From positions 1 to 40,480 of the forward strand of contig JAFGNZ010000287.1 of assembly GCA_016926755.1 (NCBI GenBank): a stretch of 40,480 nt of DNA, in the 5' to 3' direction. Positions within the stretch are counted from its first letter, which is position 1, and each line of letters begins with the position of its first letter. The notes under the pieces were generated by a model. The model searched no databases, had not been told where the DNA came from, and worked only from the letters and a program-made list of their open reading frames with translations. Origin of the DNA: Myxococcaceae bacterium (GTDB taxonomy: Bacteria; Myxococcota; Myxococcia; Myxococcales; Myxococcaceae). A program made the position numbers and the translations under genes. Of this stretch, positions 6,091 to 13,312 are shown piece after piece.

Positions 6091-9000
6091 TCACTGGCAG
6101 ATGTTCGTGTCGCGCAGCGGCTTGAAGTAGCCCCCGGCATTGCCCGTCAGCGAGCGAGCATAGAAGCCGCCCTCCCACCTCCCGTCATTGAAGAGGACAT
6201 GGGCCTGGGGAGCCAGCACCGTACCCAGGAAGCCATAGCCAGAGGCTGACAGGGAGGTGGCGTCCGGGAAGTTGAAGAGGACGCCGTGCTCGTCGATGCC
6301 ACCACCGAAGCTCTGGTTGAGGTTGGTGAGGGTGACCGAGCTGCCGCGAACGTTGATGACGGCCAGGGAGCCCGCGGGGGCCTCGATGGAGAGCAGCCAG
6401 GCACCGGTGAAGGCGCTGCCGTCTACATCGAAGACGTTCACCTCGGCAGAGGTGCCGCGCAGCAGGACGACTCCCCAGGACTCGCGGGTCGTGGAGCCGT
6501 TGGCTGGGAGAGCGCCGAGCTCGGAGGAGAGGGCGCGCAGCGAGCTGCCGCGGGCGGCGAAGTCGATGGGGGTGCCCTGCGACACGGTGCCGCGAACGAA
6601 GCCAACGGACTCGTCGGCGAGCTGGCCGCCGTACCAGACGTCACCCCAGACGCCACCTCTGGAGAGGGTGATGTCACCACCGGCCACCAGCACGTTGTCG
6701 ATGTCCGTGTCCGGCAGCATCCAGCCGACCGAGAAGTCCTGGAGGGAGATGTTTCCGCCAGCGGCCAGCCGGCCCTCGACGGCCTGGCCCTGGTTGTAGT
6801 CCTCGAGGATGAAGAGGTTGAAGTCTCCGAGACGAACCTCGATGCAGTGGCCGAAGCTGTTGTCGCCTACGGCCACGGTGATGCTGGTGAAGGTCGTCCC
6901 GTTGCGCACCATGACCGTGGCAATACCCGCGCCCGTGGCCGTCAGCATCCCGCCGCTCGTCACCGTGGCAACGCTCGAGTTCGAGCTCGAGTACACGGTG
7001 CCAAGGCTCGGTGAAGAGATGTCCCGCGTGATCCCGTCGTCATGGTGCCCGAGCACCTGCAGCTGCCGTTTCGTGCCGGGGCCCGGAAGGGTGGCATCAC
7101 CGTTGAGGACCTCAATGGAGGTCAGCTGCGCCGAGGAAACCACGGGCAGGGCAACCGATTCCGAGGCCAGCAGCTCGCCCTGGGCATCGAAGCCGAACGC
7201 CACGAGCTCGACCGTGCCGATGGCCTCCGCGGGGATCGGGAACTCGGCCACGAACGGGGCCGTCTCGAGGAAGACCGCCTGGCCCGCGCCGGCGATGAAC
7301 ACGACCGCGGGCTGGAACCCGCCAGTGGCCTCCAGGGCTACCGTCACGCGGCTACCCGGAGCCACGGGCGTGCCCGCGCTGGGTGAGCTGATCGTCAGAC
7401 TGCCTGACGAGAGCGACGCGACGCTGGTGATCCCACCCGCGCTCCGAATGGCCCCTCCATCGCAGCTATTGACCCGCGGCACATCGCCTGGGCGCGGGAT
7501 GGACGGAGCAAACAACCCGCCGCTGATGGGGCTGTTGAGGAGCTCGACGAGCTTCGTGTGATGCGGATCGTCGCTCGGGACCTTGAAGTGCTCGGTGTCA
7601 TAAGCCGACGAGTTCAGGCTGAAATAGCTCACCGCGGCCTCCGAGATCCCGCCCTTCTGCTCCGCCTCGGCCACGAACAGGTCGTGCTCATCACTGCAGA
7701 ACAGCTTGCTCTCCGGCCCCAGGATGAGCTTTTGCTTCTCCACCAGCGGCGCGTCGCTCACCAACGGGTGATTGAACTCCATTTGCGTATACAGTGTCCT
7801 GATGTTGCCAAGGAGCATCGGGTTGGAGGCGCTGCGCGCCAGCGCCAGCCCGCCGCGGCTCACCAGGGCATGTGAGGGGACCTGGGTCTCCCCGATGCTG
7901 CTGATGACCGCGCTGTCGGTCTTGAGGTCATCAATCGCGACGGCCCCCGCCCCCTCACCGTCGATCACGATGCCTACTCTTGCCAGCGAGTTCTTCATCC
8001 TCAGCCATTGGTCCGGCTTGTTTGCCTTGAGGTAGTCACGCATCACGACGATCTCGTCGGCCATGCGCGTCCCCAGATGGGGGGTGTTCATCGTGATGAG
8101 CCGGTTGAGGTCACCCGCATGGAAGTTGCTGAAGCGGCGGTAGTTGGACCAGTCGGCAAACTTGCGGGTCAAGAGTCCGCCCATGCCATGAGCGATGGCA
8201 TCCACCTGCGTGACGGCGATCCCTCGGCCACGCATCTCCTCCAGGGCCTCGTACACCGCATTCGGGACAACCCCCTGGTTCTCGCCGGAGCCCAGGCTGG
8301 CCGAGTTGCTGCTCGCATAGTCAGCACAGGTCACCTCGAAGAGCCCGTTCCTGTAGATGTCCGCGCTTCCTTTCCAGTAGAGACAGCCGGACCAGAGGTC
8401 GTGCACGACCACCACGGGAGGCCGAACGATGGTAATGTCATGCTCGATCTGAAACCCTCCACCCCCGCTAGGAATGTATTGTGCCTCGATGCGCGCGCTC
8501 CGCTTCGTGGCCTCCGCGAAGCCTCCGGTGTCAAAGTCCTCGGGGCTCGTGTACAGGGCAAACGCGTAGTACTGCCCTTGCGCTGCCTGCCGGACATCCA
8601 CGGTGACCGATCCGCTCCGCGCGGGACTACCGACCGCGCCGAGGCCGCCGTTCGCGGGAAAGCTCGCGCCAGGCAGCGAGAGCTGCATCTGACCGGGGCC
8701 AGGCACCTTGACGCGCAGGAGGAGCTGGGTAATGCCATCGGCCGCCACTCCCTGCACGGGCTCGCCGTTCGCAGCGAGCTTCACGGGATCGGTCTCCACG
8801 GTGCCCAGGAACGGGTGAATCAGGCTCGGGTTCGGATCAACCACCTCGATGCCCGAGAAGGCGATATTGTCGATGATCACCGTGGAGTCCAGGGCCCCAT
8901 CCCCCAGGTCGCGAATGTCAAACTCGAGCGTGATCAGCCCTCCGCTCGCGACCTCGGCGTTGACCGTCTTGAAATCAGTGATCCCCGCGTCCGGGAACAG

Positions 9001-9699
9001 AGGGATGCCCGGCGGGGCGCTGCTTGGAAATGTGTCAGCCCCCGCCGGATCATCGGAGAACAAGAGATCGAAGCCGGTCCCTCCCGCGCGCGTCGCCGAC
9101 ACGTCGAAGAAGAAGGAGCTGTTCACCGAGGCGCTGGCGGCGACACGGGTCCCGAGGGCATCCGTCACCCGCGCGGTGAACATGTCGTTGAACTTCGAGC
9201 CGAGATAGTCGGGAGACTCGGCGCTCAGGAAGTTGTACTCAAACGACAGGCGGTTGGCGCCGGCTGGCACATTGAGCGTGATCCGCAAGGTCACCGCGTC
9301 ACCCTCGACACCATCGGGCGAGAAGTCAGTGCCCGGCTCGGGCAGGTGGCTGACATTGATGCGGCCCGTGCTCAGCAGTACCAGCGAGTCGCCTCGCCGT
9401 GGCTTGATGACACCAAAATAGGGCTGCACCAGCGCCGCATCAGGGTGAGGGCTCGTGAGCTGGGCGTCCGTCACCATGCCTGCTGGAAGGTCCAGGGCGG
9501 TGGCCATGTCCGAGGCCAGGGTGAGCGAGAGCCCCTCTGCCGGCTTCACCAGCTGCCGGCTCGCGACCCGCTGGCGCTCGGCCCCGGTCACCTCACGGGA
9601 CTTCTTGACTTCCCCGTCATGCCCGGACAGGTCGATGTCAGCACACGCCGCTGCCATCGCGGCGATGAACAATAGAAAGAGAACGTTGCGCGTCTGCAT
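6091..9699 (-). CDS. Multidomain surface lipoprotein with inactive-looking lipase domain
   Basis: 1202 residues from ATG 9699, chosen because GGAG (9708-9711) sits 8 nt upstream; the GTG at 9708 overlaps that site. A lipoprotein signal ends at about Cys19 (FIAAMAAAC). Domains in order: a choice-of-anchor-L-like module (~60-295, with SFEYNFLSAE and FNDMFTARV); a beta-sandwich linker; a PGAP1/lipase-like alpha/beta-hydrolase (~430-720, VVVVHDLWS, DAIAHGMGGLLTRKFADW); an Ig-like segment; a Big2 domain (~863-944); and a C-terminal choice-of-anchor-A module (~951-1200). At the nucleophile elbow the usual GHSMGG is AHGMGG, so Ser is Gly505, while plausible Asp (CSDEHD) and His (DPHHTKL) partners remain. 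A binding or scaffold role on the outer membrane is inferred. It is the last gene of a three-gene minus-strand run. Confidence 0.85.
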   Translation of the reverse strand: MQTRNVLFLLFIAAMAAACADIDLSGHDGEVKKSREVTGAERQRVASRQLVKPAEGLSLTLASDMATALDLPAGMVTDAQLTSPHPDAALVQPYFGVIKPRRGDSLVLLSTGRINVSHLPEPGTDFSPDGVEGDAVTLRITLNVPAGANRLSFEYNFLSAESPDYLGSKFNDMFTARVTDALGTRVAASASVNSSFFFDVSATRAGGTGFDLLFSDDPAGADTFPSSAPPGIPLFPDAGITDFKTVNAEVASGGLITLEFDIRDLGDGALDSTVIIDNIAFSGIEVVDPNPSLIHPFLGTVETDPVKLAANGEPVQGVAADGITQLLLRVKVPGPGQMQLSLPGASFPANGGLGAVGSPARSGSVTVDVRQAAQGQYYAFALYTSPEDFDTGGFAEATKRSARIEAQYIPSGGGGFQIEHDITIVRPPVVVVHDLWSGCLYWKGSADIYRNGLFEVTCADYASSNSASLGSGENQGVVPNAVYEALEEMRGRGIAVTQVDAIAHGMGGLLTRKFADWSNYRRFSNFHAGDLNRLITMNTPHLGTRMADEIVVMRDYLKANKPDQWLRMKNSLARVGIVIDGEGAGAVAIDDLKTDSAVISSIGETQVPSHALVSRGGLALARSASNPMLLGNIRTLYTQMEFNHPLVSDAPLVEKQKLILGPESKLFCSDEHDLFVAEAEQKGGISEAAVSYFSLNSSAYDTEHFKVPSDDPHHTKLVELLNSPISGGLFAPSIPRPGDVPRVNSCDGGAIRSAGGITSVASLSSGSLTISSPSAGTPVAPGSRVTVALEATGGFQPAVVFIAGAGQAVFLETAPFVAEFPIPAEAIGTVELVAFGFDAQGELLASESVALPVVSSAQLTSIEVLNGDATLPGPGTKRQLQVLGHHDDGITRDISSPSLGTVYSSSNSSVATVTSGGMLTATGAGIATVMVRNGTTFTSITVAVGDNSFGHCIEVRLGDFNLFILEDYNQGQAVEGRLAAGGNISLQDFSVGWMLPDTDIDNVLVAGGDITLSRGGVWGDVWYGGQLADESVGFVRGTVSQGTPIDFAARGSSLRALSSELGALPANGSTTRESWGVVLLRGTSAEVNVFDVDGSAFTGAWLLSIEAPAGSLAVINVRGSSVTLTNLNQSFGGGIDEHGVLFNFPDATSLSASGYGFLGTVLAPQAHVLFNDGRWEGGFYARSLTGNAGGYFKPLRDTNICQ

Positions 9700-9707
9700 G
9701 AGACTCA

Positions 9708-9711
9708 CTCC
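9708..9711 (-). promoter_or_regulatory. Ribosome-binding site deciding the 9699 start
   Basis: GGAG on the minus strand, 8 nt before ATG 9699. It overlaps the alternative GTG at 9708, which makes that longer start unlikely. Confidence 0.5.
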
Positions 9712-9866: not shown

Positions 9867-11735
9867 CTACTTCCCGTGGGTGGACATCTGGTAATCGCGA
9901 TGCCACCTGTCAGGCAGTCTGGCGAGCACGGAGCCATCCTTCCGGGTCATGGCGAGGGTCTCGTACTTTCTCTGGATCTGGCCATCGCCGACCATGAAGC
10001 CGTTGGCGTACACCACGGTCTGATCCTCGGCGAGGGTGGCCTTCTGTGCGTCCGAGCCGACCTTGACGTTGTACACCTTGCCGTCATACGCCTCGCGGCT
10101 CACCTCGACGAGCTTGCTGGGCCCGGTCTTGGTCATGGCCACGTCGCCCTCTCGCAGCGCCTTGGCCTGGACCATGCCGCGGCCCGCCACCTGGATGGGG
10201 TGCATCTCCGTCATCAGCAGGGTGCGGCCGGCCTCGCTACGGATGCGCACCATGGGGACCTTCTCGAACCCGACGGCCGTGTCCATGACCGTGAGCGCCG
10301 GGTGATACGGATTGGACACCTGGTCTCCCGCCTTCAGTGACTCGATGGTCGCCGACTTGCCGGCCGCCAGCTCGATCTCGGTCCCCGCGGCCAGGCAGCT
10401 GTTGGTGATGGTGATGTCCTTCAACGTATAGTCCGCCCGCGTCATGGCCGGATCATTGCTCAGAGTGATAGAGGAGCGATACGGCTTGTCACTTCCAGCA
10501 TCGAGGCGCAGAAGGAGCGGCAGCGGGATGATCATGCTCAGCATGGCGCGATCCTGCATCTGGCGGCAGCCTTCGTCGAAGAACGCGGCGTTGTCGCCCG
10601 TGAGATCCCAGGAGAGGGTCTTCTCGTCCGGACTCAGCGCGACCCCGTTCCAGAACTGAGCCATCTTTGCCACCACGGTGCTGCCATCGGTCACATCGCA
10701 GCCGCCGCCCACATTGGTGAGCACCAACTTGACATGCCCAGCATCGGAGCGAGGCACGCCGTTCTTCAGATCCTCCCTGAGCCCGTCGATGTGAGCCTTG
10801 TTGAAGACATGGCTGCTCGCGATCTTGATCGAGCCTTTCAGCGGCAGCTTGACGGCATGTTCCGTGCCCGTCAGATCAACGTCGCAGTCCTGGGTCCAGG
10901 TGCGGTTCAGGCACACGGAGATGAGGTTATCGTTATACGCGACGTCCTTCGGCGCCTCGACCGAGGGGGTCTCCAGCATGGGGACCTCGTCAACCTCGGA
11001 CGCGGTCTCCGAGCCCAGCTCGGTGTAGAGGTATGAATCCTCAAACCCGTTGGCGGCCGATTCCTCGATCTTGTAGGACGCAACAGCATATTGCTTGAGG
11101 CTGGTCAGGCTCAGGTCGCCGGCTGCGTTGACGGTCGTGTTGTACCCGCCCGCGTACTCCTGGGTCCAGCCCAGGGATCCCAGCGGGTAACCGCTCGCGT
11201 CGGTGTAGCTGACGTCGAGATAGGTATAGTTGGTGCCTCCGGGGAACGTGGAGCTCGCGGCGCCCAAGCCGTCATTGGTGACCGCGGTGGTCTCGCCGGC
11301 GTTGGCCACCGGGATGTAGTGCATCTCCTGGCGTTCCGCCGTGGCCAGGAGCCCGCTCTCCTCCTGGGGCAAGAGCCCTTCCCGATAGCCCTTCGCCAGA
11401 TGTTGCTGGCGCCGCCGCTCCATGGCCTGGAACAGATACGGCGAGTTCTCGGGCGTCTTGTCCGCGAGCTTGAGCCGCGCCATGGCAAACCGGTGTTGCT
11501 TTGGATCCGCCAGGTTCAAGCGGATGCGGACATCCGGCCGGACGAGGCTGTGAATGTAGCGCTGATCCGCCATGTAGTTCGTCCACTCGGCCCTGGACAG
11601 CTGTCCGAACTCCATGAGCCCCTGCTCGTTGTAGCCGTAGGCGGTCCGCGTCTCCTCATGGACCTCCGACTTGCATGCAGACAACATGGCCAGACACGCG
11701 CCGCTCAAGGCGCCAAACAGATTACGTCGCATCAT
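9867..11735 (-). CDS. Lipoprotein with C-terminal Hint (hedgehog/intein) domain
   Basis: 622 residues. A lipoprotein signal peptide ends at Cys21 (LAMLSAC). Residues ~30-440 are an unrecognised extracellular part containing paired cysteines. From Cys447 a Hint self-processing domain is visible: CLAAGTEIELAAGKSATIESLKAGD (block A), TxxHPI with His512 (block B), LREGDVAMT, and VVYANG with Asn578 near the C-terminal junction. Hint domains perform an N-S acyl shift at the first Cys, leading to cleavage or splicing. Only 44 residues follow Asn578, with no recognisable toxin or second extein. Cleavage at Cys447 would release a lipid-anchored N-terminal part. GGGGG lies 8-10 nt before the ATG at 11735; the second ATG (11732) is equally usable. 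Its start is 57 nt after the upstream protease gene, suggesting co-transcription. Confidence 0.85.
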   Translation of the reverse strand: MMRRNLFGALSGACLAMLSACKSEVHEETRTAYGYNEQGLMEFGQLSRAEWTNYMADQRYIHSLVRPDVRIRLNLADPKQHRFAMARLKLADKTPENSPYLFQAMERRRQQHLAKGYREGLLPQEESGLLATAERQEMHYIPVANAGETTAVTNDGLGAASSTFPGGTNYTYLDVSYTDASGYPLGSLGWTQEYAGGYNTTVNAAGDLSLTSLKQYAVASYKIEESAANGFEDSYLYTELGSETASEVDEVPMLETPSVEAPKDVAYNDNLISVCLNRTWTQDCDVDLTGTEHAVKLPLKGSIKIASSHVFNKAHIDGLREDLKNGVPRSDAGHVKLVLTNVGGGCDVTDGSTVVAKMAQFWNGVALSPDEKTLSWDLTGDNAAFFDEGCRQMQDRAMLSMIIPLPLLLRLDAGSDKPYRSSITLSNDPAMTRADYTLKDITITNSCLAAGTEIELAAGKSATIESLKAGDQVSNPYHPALTVMDTAVGFEKVPMVRIRSEAGRTLLMTEMHPIQVAGRGMVQAKALREGDVAMTKTGPSKLVEVSREAYDGKVYNVKVGSDAQKATLAEDQTVVYANGFMVGDGQIQRKYETLAMTRKDGSVLARLPDRWHRDYQMSTHGK

Positions 11736-11792: not shown

Positions 11793-13202
11793 TTATTTGC
11801 ACACCTGGGCGTAATCATCACAACAGTCGTTGTAGATCTCGCACATGGCATCGCAGAAGCAGTCGGGCCCAGGGCCACCGCACAGGCCCTCACAGCTCGC
11901 GGGCAGGTAGCTGCAGTAGTAATTGCCCTGGCTCAGGTCATTGAAGAGCATCATGTTGGGAGAGCCCTTGGGGTCATTCATCACGCAGTCAAGAGACGCC
12001 GCGCCCTTGAGGTAGAGCTCCACCTGCGCGGGTGTGGCTCCGGGGTTGGAGCTCAAGAACTGGGCCACGACACCCGCCACGTGCGCGCTCGCCATGGACG
12101 TGCCACTCAGGGTCTGCAGCGTCGTGGAGCCGTGGATCGAGGCACCCAGGATGTCCACGCCGGGGGCGAAGATGTCCACGCACGTGCCCCAGTTGGAGAA
12201 CGCGGCCACAAAGTCGGCGTAGTCAACGGCGGCGACGGTGAGCGCCTTGGGTTCACTCGCTGGCGAGCGAGTGCAGGCGTCCACGTTGTCATTGCCCGCG
12301 GAGACCACCACGGTGATTCCCGAGTCCACCACGGTGGCGATCGCCTGGTTGAGGGGCGTGTACAGCCCCCCGCTCAGGCTCAAGTTGGCCACACAGGGCC
12401 CAGGCTGGTTGGGACAGTCGTTGTAGACAAAGTCCAGGCCGGCAATGACTCCGCCCCAGGTTCCTTCGCCAGCACAGTCCAGCACACGCACAGGGTGGAG
12501 CGTGGCCTGCCTGGCCATCCCGTAGGTGCTGCCCACAGCCGTGCTGCTCACATGGCTGCCGTGGCCATCGCAGTCCTCGGTGCCCCAGCCGTCGAGGATG
12601 GCGCCGTAACCTCCGCCAATCCGGCCGGTGAACTCGGTATGCGTCGAGTTGATCCCGCTGTCGATGACATACACATGAACCCCGGCGCCGGTGCGGCCAT
12701 GGTCGTCGTACATGCCGTCGCGGCCCGTACGCTGGTCCACCCGATCAATGCCGTCGGCCATGGTGGGGACCTTGGTGGCGCGCTGGACCCGCTGGTTCTC
12801 CTGGATGTACGCCACGCCCGGATTGAGACGCAGCCCCTCGAGCGCCGCGTCATCCAGACGCGCGGCAAACCCGGGGATGACCGAGTACTGGTGCATGAGC
12901 CGGTTGTCTCCCCCGGCTTGGGCAACCTGGCGCGCCGCCGATTCGATGGCCGCCCCGGTGCGCCCTTCCGCGAAGACCACGACATACTCACCGGGGATGC
13001 GCACCTCCGCCGGCGCCCTGATCAGCGGCGCGGTGAGGCTGCCCACCTTCGCGTGATCGGCGGAGCCCTGCCGAGGGTTGCTCAGCGGCCGCTGCTCATC
13101 GCAACCGCTGCCCAGGGCCAGCGCGAGCATCCCGCTCAGGGCCAGGAGTTGGGTTCTTGCCTTGTGCTGAAAACGACTGCCTCTTGTCTGCCTTGTCTGC
13201 AT
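11793..13202 (-). CDS. Subtilisin-like (S8, proteinase K type) protease with somatomedin-B tail
   Basis: Secreted serine endopeptidase, 469 residues from ATG 13202; a GGAGGAG at 13208-13214 makes this start much better than the in-frame ATG at 13229. Order: signal peptide with possible lipobox (MLALALGSGC); I9 propeptide (~65-140, IPGEYVVVFAEG to GVAYIQENQRV); S8 catalytic domain with Asp181 (VIDSG), His214 (DGHGSHV), oxyanion Asn in SAGNDN, and Ser369 (SGTSMAS). The last 33 residues (437-469) form a somatomedin-B-like knot with eight cysteines in the SMB spacing, ending in CCDDYAQVC. SMB modules are common in animal extracellular proteins and much rarer in bacteria. The mature enzyme probably acts outside the cell in nutrient or prey degradation or in processing of surface proteins; the targets are unknown. 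Confidence 0.94.
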   Translation of the reverse strand: MQTRQTRGSRFQHKARTQLLALSGMLALALGSGCDEQRPLSNPRQGSADHAKVGSLTAPLIRAPAEVRIPGEYVVVFAEGRTGAAIESAARQVAQAGGDNRLMHQYSVIPGFAARLDDAALEGLRLNPGVAYIQENQRVQRATKVPTMADGIDRVDQRTGRDGMYDDHGRTGAGVHVYVIDSGINSTHTEFTGRIGGGYGAILDGWGTEDCDGHGSHVSSTAVGSTYGMARQATLHPVRVLDCAGEGTWGGVIAGLDFVYNDCPNQPGPCVANLSLSGGLYTPLNQAIATVVDSGITVVVSAGNDNVDACTRSPASEPKALTVAAVDYADFVAAFSNWGTCVDIFAPGVDILGASIHGSTTLQTLSGTSMASAHVAGVVAQFLSSNPGATPAQVELYLKGAASLDCVMNDPKGSPNMMLFNDLSQGNYYCSYLPASCEGLCGGPGPDCFCDAMCEIYNDCCDDYAQVCK

Positions 13203-13214: not shown

Positions 13215-13312
13215 GCGAGGAAGAGACAAGGCGTGACCAGGCTATGCAGAGGATTTCTTGTTCCGTGCGGGGTGCAGCTTTCCTTCCGCACTGGAGCGGA
13301 CATCCGCCTGGG

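Follow-up and report, generated by a model that had tools for sequence, protein, structure and literature searches.

The somatomedin-B (SMB) domain is best known from animals, and it has been studied mainly in proteins such as vitronectin and autotaxin. Ligands of the vitronectin SMB are PAI-1, uPAR or integrin. In the subtilase family, an Asp-His-Ser triad and an oxyanion Asn make up the catalytic residues, and C-terminal propeptides are known from aqualysin-like enzymes. For the vitronectin SMB, two papers describe protein binding as its role (PMC2829074) and the stabilisation of PAI-1 (PMC8233489). Among the papers listed in our searches of the open-licence PMC literature, titles and abstract openings yielded no description of a bacterial, prokaryotic or myxobacterial SMB, or of an SMB combined with a subtilisin.

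We analysed a stretch of 40,480 nucleotides from a Myxococcaceae bacterium (hereafter the window), in which a subtilase gene ends in an SMB-coding segment. The gene lies on the minus strand at 11793..13202 and runs from an ATG at 13202 to a TAA at 11793-11795; a longer reading frame from a TTG at 13229 is possible. From its open reading frame, translation and Pfam matches to S8, I9 and SMB, the product of 469 aa reads as an exported subtilase zymogen with a C-terminal SMB. It comprises a signal peptide (residues 1-33) followed by the putative lipid-carrying cysteine C34 (13101..13202), an Inhibitor_I9 propeptide (residues 73-140; 12783..12986; Pfam E 2.7e-8), a Peptidase_S8 domain (residues 172-402 as the extent of the Pfam match; 11997..12689; E 4e-34) and, at the extreme C-terminus, the SMB (residues 436-469; 11796..11897), all on the minus strand. 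Orthologues, defined as subtilase matches at E<=1e-100, were present in 17 of the 96 family genomes, including that of the window. Residues D181, H214, N304 and S369 showed no variation among these 17 orthologues. Eight cysteines of the catalytic region (211, 243, 263, 270, 310, 341, 406 and 430) were likewise kept in all 17, the last two being located just past the S8 match. The sequence thus identifies the product as a proteinase-K-type subtilase with S8 and I9 domains, an intact triad and a zymogen architecture.

By sequence, the closest solved structures were an extracellular serine proteinase (8c4z), aqualysin-1, keratinase and proteinase K, followed by PCSK9 chains. The window protein has the S8 domain and the I9 propeptide in common with proteinase K-like subtilases such as aqualysin-1 and the extracellular serine proteinases, and C211-C243 and C310-C341 fit the two aqualysin disulfides, assuming the pairing typical of that family. 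In contrast to these enzymes, it adds a probable lipoprotein signal, extra cysteines and the SMB tail, and its gene has fixed Hint and choice-of-anchor-A neighbours. Cys34 was found in 17 of 17 orthologues behind a hydrophobic stretch, with a variable residue at position -3 (Gly in the window). The resulting lipobox is the non-canonical GSG-C in the window and LGG-C, WSG-C, FVG-C or another variant in the orthologues. Lipid attachment at Cys34 is probable rather than certain. A full-length model of the subtilase, built from three sequences, reached a pLDDT of 31.8 and was not used.

The original prediction of a subtilase with a C-terminal SMB agrees with our results, as Pfam matched S8, the SMB match exceeded its Pfam cut-off and the predicted fold of the tail concurred. 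Pfam Somatomedin_B (PF01033), for which the curated cut-off is 23.1 bits, matched the whole protein at 28.5 bits (E 1.9e-6) and the isolated tail at 35.4 bits; according to the profile search this is the sole SMB above cut-off in the window genome. The 33 residues from C437 to K469 contain eight cysteines in the arrangement C-x3-C-x6-C-x-C-x3-C-x5-CC-x6-C, and the predicted CCxDYxxxC ending is literally there, as CCDDYAQVC. The SMB domains of vitronectin and ENPP1/2/3 (autotaxin) have the same order of eight cysteines, the same CxC and CC pairs, and the C-D and CCxDY motifs. The eight cysteines foreseen for the final 33 residues were all present, and their vitronectin-like spacing was borne out except in the second loop, which has 6 residues in the window and 9 in vitronectin. 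Unlike the SMB of vitronectin and ENPP1/2/3, the window SMB terminates a protease. Furthermore, vitronectin has an RGD after its SMB, whereas none follows the window SMB because the protein stops at K469.

Scanning public genome contigs for the motif returned at least 113 stretches, from which a stricter pattern retained 92 domains. Alignment A1 consists of the window tail and 79 of these 92 domains, as 13 with doubled or irregular spacing were omitted on visual inspection, and it is a biased sample because part of the SMB motif is already built into the scan pattern. All 80 domains, namely the window tail and the 79 picked by motif and spacing, matched SMB at E<=0.01, which rules out that the spacing is owned by an unrelated bacterial Cys-rich family, the objection that had been raised beforehand. 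A chance cluster of cysteines is ruled out by the profile, the fold and the orthologues with the same module.

As a single query, the window tail gave a weak match to vitronectin (E 0.0086). The 80-domain profile (the window plus 79 prokaryotic loci) matched 44 distinct PDB sequences at E<=1. Of these, 43 matched at E<=0.001, and they comprised vitronectin, ENPP1/2/3, snake venom phosphodiesterase, a sushi-domain protein and uridylate-specific endoribonuclease; the 44th was a defensin (E 0.62). Folded alone with the 80-sequence alignment, the tail gave a model with a pLDDT of 96.1 and a pTM of 0.64. The best 50 of 103 Foldseek rows for this model were all autotaxin or vitronectin (prob 0.99-1.00), and the best E was no lower than 0.008 because the domain is short. 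The 41 best rows could be overlaid at Z 4.4-5.2, middling by the grade of the tool, with an rmsd of 1.2-1.8 over 33-35 residues, and the TM-score against 1oc0_B was 0.81. A Z of this size would be poor evidence for a large fold, but it is convincing for a whole domain of 35 residues that also matches in sequence. Profile and predicted fold together indicate that the subtilase tail is a genuine SMB domain.

The subtilase gene belongs to a cassette of three genes. We extracted the neighbouring proteins of the 17 genomes from tblastn positions, and all three cassette proteins open with an apparent signal stretch and an invariant cysteine (Cys21 of the second protein in 17 of 17, Cys22 of the third in 16 of 16). 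The second gene (9867..11735, minus strand) encodes a lipoprotein-like protein of 622 aa with a C-terminal Hint domain. It lies directly downstream of the subtilase gene in all 17 genomes, across a gap of 57 bases in the window and 38-106 bases in the other 16 (measured to the start of homology). The Hint/Vint domain (residues 446-551; 10083..10400, minus strand) matched Pfam Vint at 29.7 bits (cut-off 27), and its N445-S446-C447 and T509-E-M-H512 motifs were kept in 17 of 17, as would be expected of a self-cleaving Hint domain.

The third gene (6091..9708, minus strand) encodes a choice-of-anchor-A protein according to Pfam and NCBIfam, and its true start is probably the ATG at 9699 (M4). It follows the Hint gene in 16 of the 17 genomes; the copy in G120 is cut by the contig end, and the contig of G083 ends before the third gene. 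The encoded protein contains, in this order, a choice-of-anchor L domain, a lipase-like region, a weak Big_2 domain and a choice-of-anchor A or ice-binding-like adhesive domain, with the lipase-like and Big_2 matches falling below the Pfam cut-offs. Within the HGxGG motif of the lipase-like region (HGMGG in the window, residues 507-511), the nucleophile is usually Ser in lipases. This position (G508) is Gly in 16 of 16 proteins, and therefore the lipase-like region is probably a dead enzyme, that is, a pseudoenzyme. Searches of the open-licence PMC literature found no papers on Hint and choice-of-anchor-A neighbours.

Between 5700 and 13700, no sigma-70-like promoter was found, and the three terminator-like matches were no excess over shuffled sequences (mean 3.4). 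No tandem repeats were found between 6000 and 13300. Five further genomes (loci L225, L226, L227, L228 and L229) contained a distant but nearly full-length relative of the Hint protein with 41-47% identity. Around these relatives, tblastn at E<=1e-15 detected neither the subtilase nor the third gene, in four stretches of 20 kb and one contig of 4.6 kb. The Hint protein therefore exists outside the cassette too.

The wider neighbourhood was inspected as well. Downstream of the cassette (3'), a homologous fourth gene was present in 13 of the 17 genomes (L209:15418-19527 and equivalents). It was absent from the window and from G094; in G083 and G120 the contig stops short of that position. The copy that was scanned, from G126, is by Pfam an M36 metallopeptidase of the fungalysin type that also contains PA and PKD domains, and by our own reading the protein has a MYXO-CTERM-like tail; it scored under the cut-off that NCBIfam sets for myxosortase-dependent members. 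Upstream of the cassette (L209:5785-7002, minus strand; L211:7154-8056, plus strand), 15 of the 17 genomes have a Ser/Thr kinase gene whose product is 61-70% identical to the G126 kinase; in the window the only kinase match, about 5 kb upstream, is more remote (36%). An open reading frame between kinase and subtilase resembles a sigma-factor-type regulator and matched no Pfam family at E<=1e-4.

Sixteen of the 17 subtilase orthologues terminate in an SMB, one residue after its last cysteine. The orthologue in G094 stops at the same linker and lacks the SMB. We dismissed a broken SMB hidden 3' of the G094 gene after reading three frames of 600 bases by eye, which revealed neither an SMB remnant nor its cysteine pattern. 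Despite its SMB-less subtilase, G094 retains all three cassette genes. Hence, the SMB is an add-on module to a three-gene surface-processing cassette that is able to exist without it, and docking through the SMB would be unnecessary for the core function of the cassette.

When the 17 orthologues were placed in a midpoint-rooted tree together with 13 close paralogues, they formed a clade (100/100). G094 was placed as sister to the other 16 with a support of 86/86, which is not a starred branch, and G094 itself had a long branch. Many weaker paralogues exist; the tails of the 13 that were fetched were read in part, and within this partial reading no SMB was seen and other tails stood in its place. 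The genomes of these 13 paralogues were also absent from the SMB matches of our search in Myxococcota. As 16 orthologues share the SMB, it predates their divergence, and the tree mildly favours one gain after the split from G094, although the SMB may instead have been lost in G094. Within the genus group of the window, the subtilase gene occurred in one of seven genomes; a further genome of this group, G099, encodes its SMB in another open reading frame.

How the protein may work can be proposed from its architecture. The I9 propeptide would fold the enzyme and would then be cut off. Because the putative lipid-carrying Cys34 precedes the propeptide, this cleavage would free the catalytic domain, together with the SMB, from the membrane. 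The SMB starts only six residues past the last cysteine of the catalytic domain, and it could serve as a docking knob, rigid and resistant to proteolysis, through which the mature protease stays attached to a partner on the surface or in the matrix. The likeliest such partner would be a product of the cassette itself, either the Hint protein or the choice-of-anchor-A protein. The docked protease would then act locally instead of diffusing off. Docking of the released mature protease to a surface partner is our first choice, held tentatively and with slightly less than even confidence, because the SMB is the sole recognised accessory module on the mature enzyme and because the vitronectin SMB binds protein. 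The missing RGD after the SMB, the non-canonical lipobox of the window and the SMB-less cassette of G094 speak against it.

The SMB may instead be a structural cap, a plug of four disulfides that shields the C-terminus of the protease from autolysis and unfolding and that has no ligand. We regard this as possible and as the second choice. The short distance between the SMB and the last catalytic cysteine would suit a cap, and the eight invariant cysteines of the catalytic region form a pattern that may have been selected for ruggedness. Moreover, G094 manages without the SMB, as expected of a dispensable stabiliser. However, besides the eight SMB cysteines, six further residues (S436, G439, G442, F449, D459 and D463) do not vary among the 16 SMB-bearing orthologues, and the 13 close paralogues that were fetched carry other tails.

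The rates of change bear on the same point. Mean pairwise identity among the 16 orthologues was 0.661 in the SMB and 0.689 in the catalytic region, compared with 0.247 in the linker (431-435). Pooled over 11 close pairs, which overlap and of which six come from just four genomes, dN/dS was 0.07 in the SMB, 0.229 in the catalytic region, 0.272 in the propeptide and 0.426 in the stretch 35-72; the value for the SMB is based on 33 codons with few changes, as in eight of the 11 pairs the SMB does not differ at the protein level. The SMB is thus under purifying selection, with a dN/dS below that of the enzyme itself, which is more than a bare plug seems to need. This constraint implies that the SMB matters, and it leaves docking and stabilising, the two roles suggested in the original prediction, undivided.

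To place the window SMB among other prokaryotic proteins, we compared its occurrence across genomes. PF01033 matched 33 of 195 Myxococcota genomes at E<=0.01, and 29 of the 195 exceeded the cut-off. In contrast, there were no matches at E<=0.01 in 14 control genomes; at a loose E<=10, sub-threshold matches appeared in five of the 14 controls, none of them above cut-off. One of the 195 genomes, G182, had 23 SMB matches, and an uncultured Myxococcales assembly reached via locus L099 (G204) had 34 at E<=0.001. The matches in these two assemblies are partly in tandem, as lineage expansions of the module. Outside the Myxococcota, 6 of 193 sampled genomes exceeded the SMB cut-off in the archaeal phylum of a Woesearchaeota assembly, with the seed counted, and 1 of 296 genomes had an SMB in the phylum of a Cryomorphaceae assembly, which was the seed alone. 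Stray contigs may be the source of the SMB in assemblies of these two types. Among the 80 scan stretches listed, 39 had a myxobacterial taxon name by manual count and six came from archaeal assemblies; most of the remaining listed titles were labelled merely Deltaproteobacteria, Proteobacteria or bacterium. One open reading frame with the SMB motif (L061) comes from an assembly that is labelled Klebsiella pneumoniae; our guess is that its contig is foreign to that assembly. In four loci (L069, L087, L088 and L156), a second Cys-rich repeat (approximately C..C...C..C.C..C.C..D..CC...WD..C) stands beside the SMB in the same proteins.

A second set of sequences, A2, consists of the window protein and the 59 of the 92 open reading frames that had both ends closed and a length of 150-1250 aa. 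Of these 60 proteins, 55 matched SMB at E<=1e-4 and the other five did not. Their partner domains were varied, and those named among the best 25 of 44 families included trypsin-like, M4, C25, SNase, lectin (C-type) and fn3 domains, among others. S8 occurred in just three of the 60 proteins, which by inference are the window protein and two Corallococcus orthologues. Using home-made rules instead of a trained predictor, we found a lipobox-like N-terminus in 34 of 76 complete SMB open reading frames versus 27 of 222 control frames at the same loci, and a hydrophobic N-terminus in 56 of the 76 versus 69 of the 222. The lipobox-like enrichment suggests that the SMB module is generally carried on exported proteins. 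Other prokaryotic SMB proteins, in Myxococcota, Woesearchaeota and elsewhere, hence resemble the window protein in matching the same profile and in often being exported and lipoprotein-like, but they rarely contain S8. The frequency among genomes, the variety of partners and the exported N-termini together point to the SMB as a resident extracellular module of Myxococcota, on many, mostly exported, protein types. As far as our literature searches show, this prokaryotic repertoire appears to be large and little described.

The repertoire also bears on a further explanation, according to which the SMB is a C-terminal propeptide or an export or sorting tail that is removed at maturation. The terminal position of the SMB in all 16 SMB-bearing orthologues would fit such a role, and so would aqualysin-1 being among the best solved relatives. 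Elsewhere in prokaryotes, however, the SMB is mostly non-terminal, with the last SMB core within about 10 aa of the protein end in only 19 of the 76 complete open reading frames. It is also unlike the MYXO-CTERM-type tail of the metalloprotease that adjoins the cassette in other genomes, and its strong constraint argues against a discarded tail. We therefore consider removal at maturation quite unlikely.

The fame of the domain in animals and the animal protein names of the 43 PDB matches (in a biased database) could suggest that this myxobacterial gene recently acquired an animal SMB by horizontal transfer. Such an event is highly improbable, given that the SMB is resident in 29 of 195 Myxococcota genomes on many protein types, with more than 20 matches in some assemblies and with 6 of 193 genomes in an archaeal phylum, and that the SMB shared by the 16 orthologues is older than their divergence. 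The original prediction of a transferred module thus fails as a recent event in this gene. Its view of an animal-typical domain in a bacterium was correct with respect to the domain, but the animal framing was too narrow for what is one of a large prokaryotic SMB repertoire. Whether there was an ancient transfer of the SMB between animals and bacteria, in either direction, is something that a domain of 35 residues is unlikely to resolve.

Docking by the SMB remains our preferred reading, and its widest form is a doubtful one. It would be that the cassette is an undescribed myxobacterial surface-processing system, in which a Hint lipoprotein cuts or couples itself, a large adhesin includes a lipase domain that is catalytically dead, and a zymogen protease tethered by lipid frees itself on activation and is then held by its SMB knob. 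The SMB would then be a general docking module of Myxococcota surfaces, used as in the animal matrix, and the animal and prokaryotic SMB would be an ancient shared module. The resident SMB repertoire of Myxococcota offers a simple bacterial setting for asking about the function and origin of the SMB. Within it, the protease-Hint-adhesin cassette provides a genetic handle, with three adjoining genes, one natural SMB-less variant and testable predictions.
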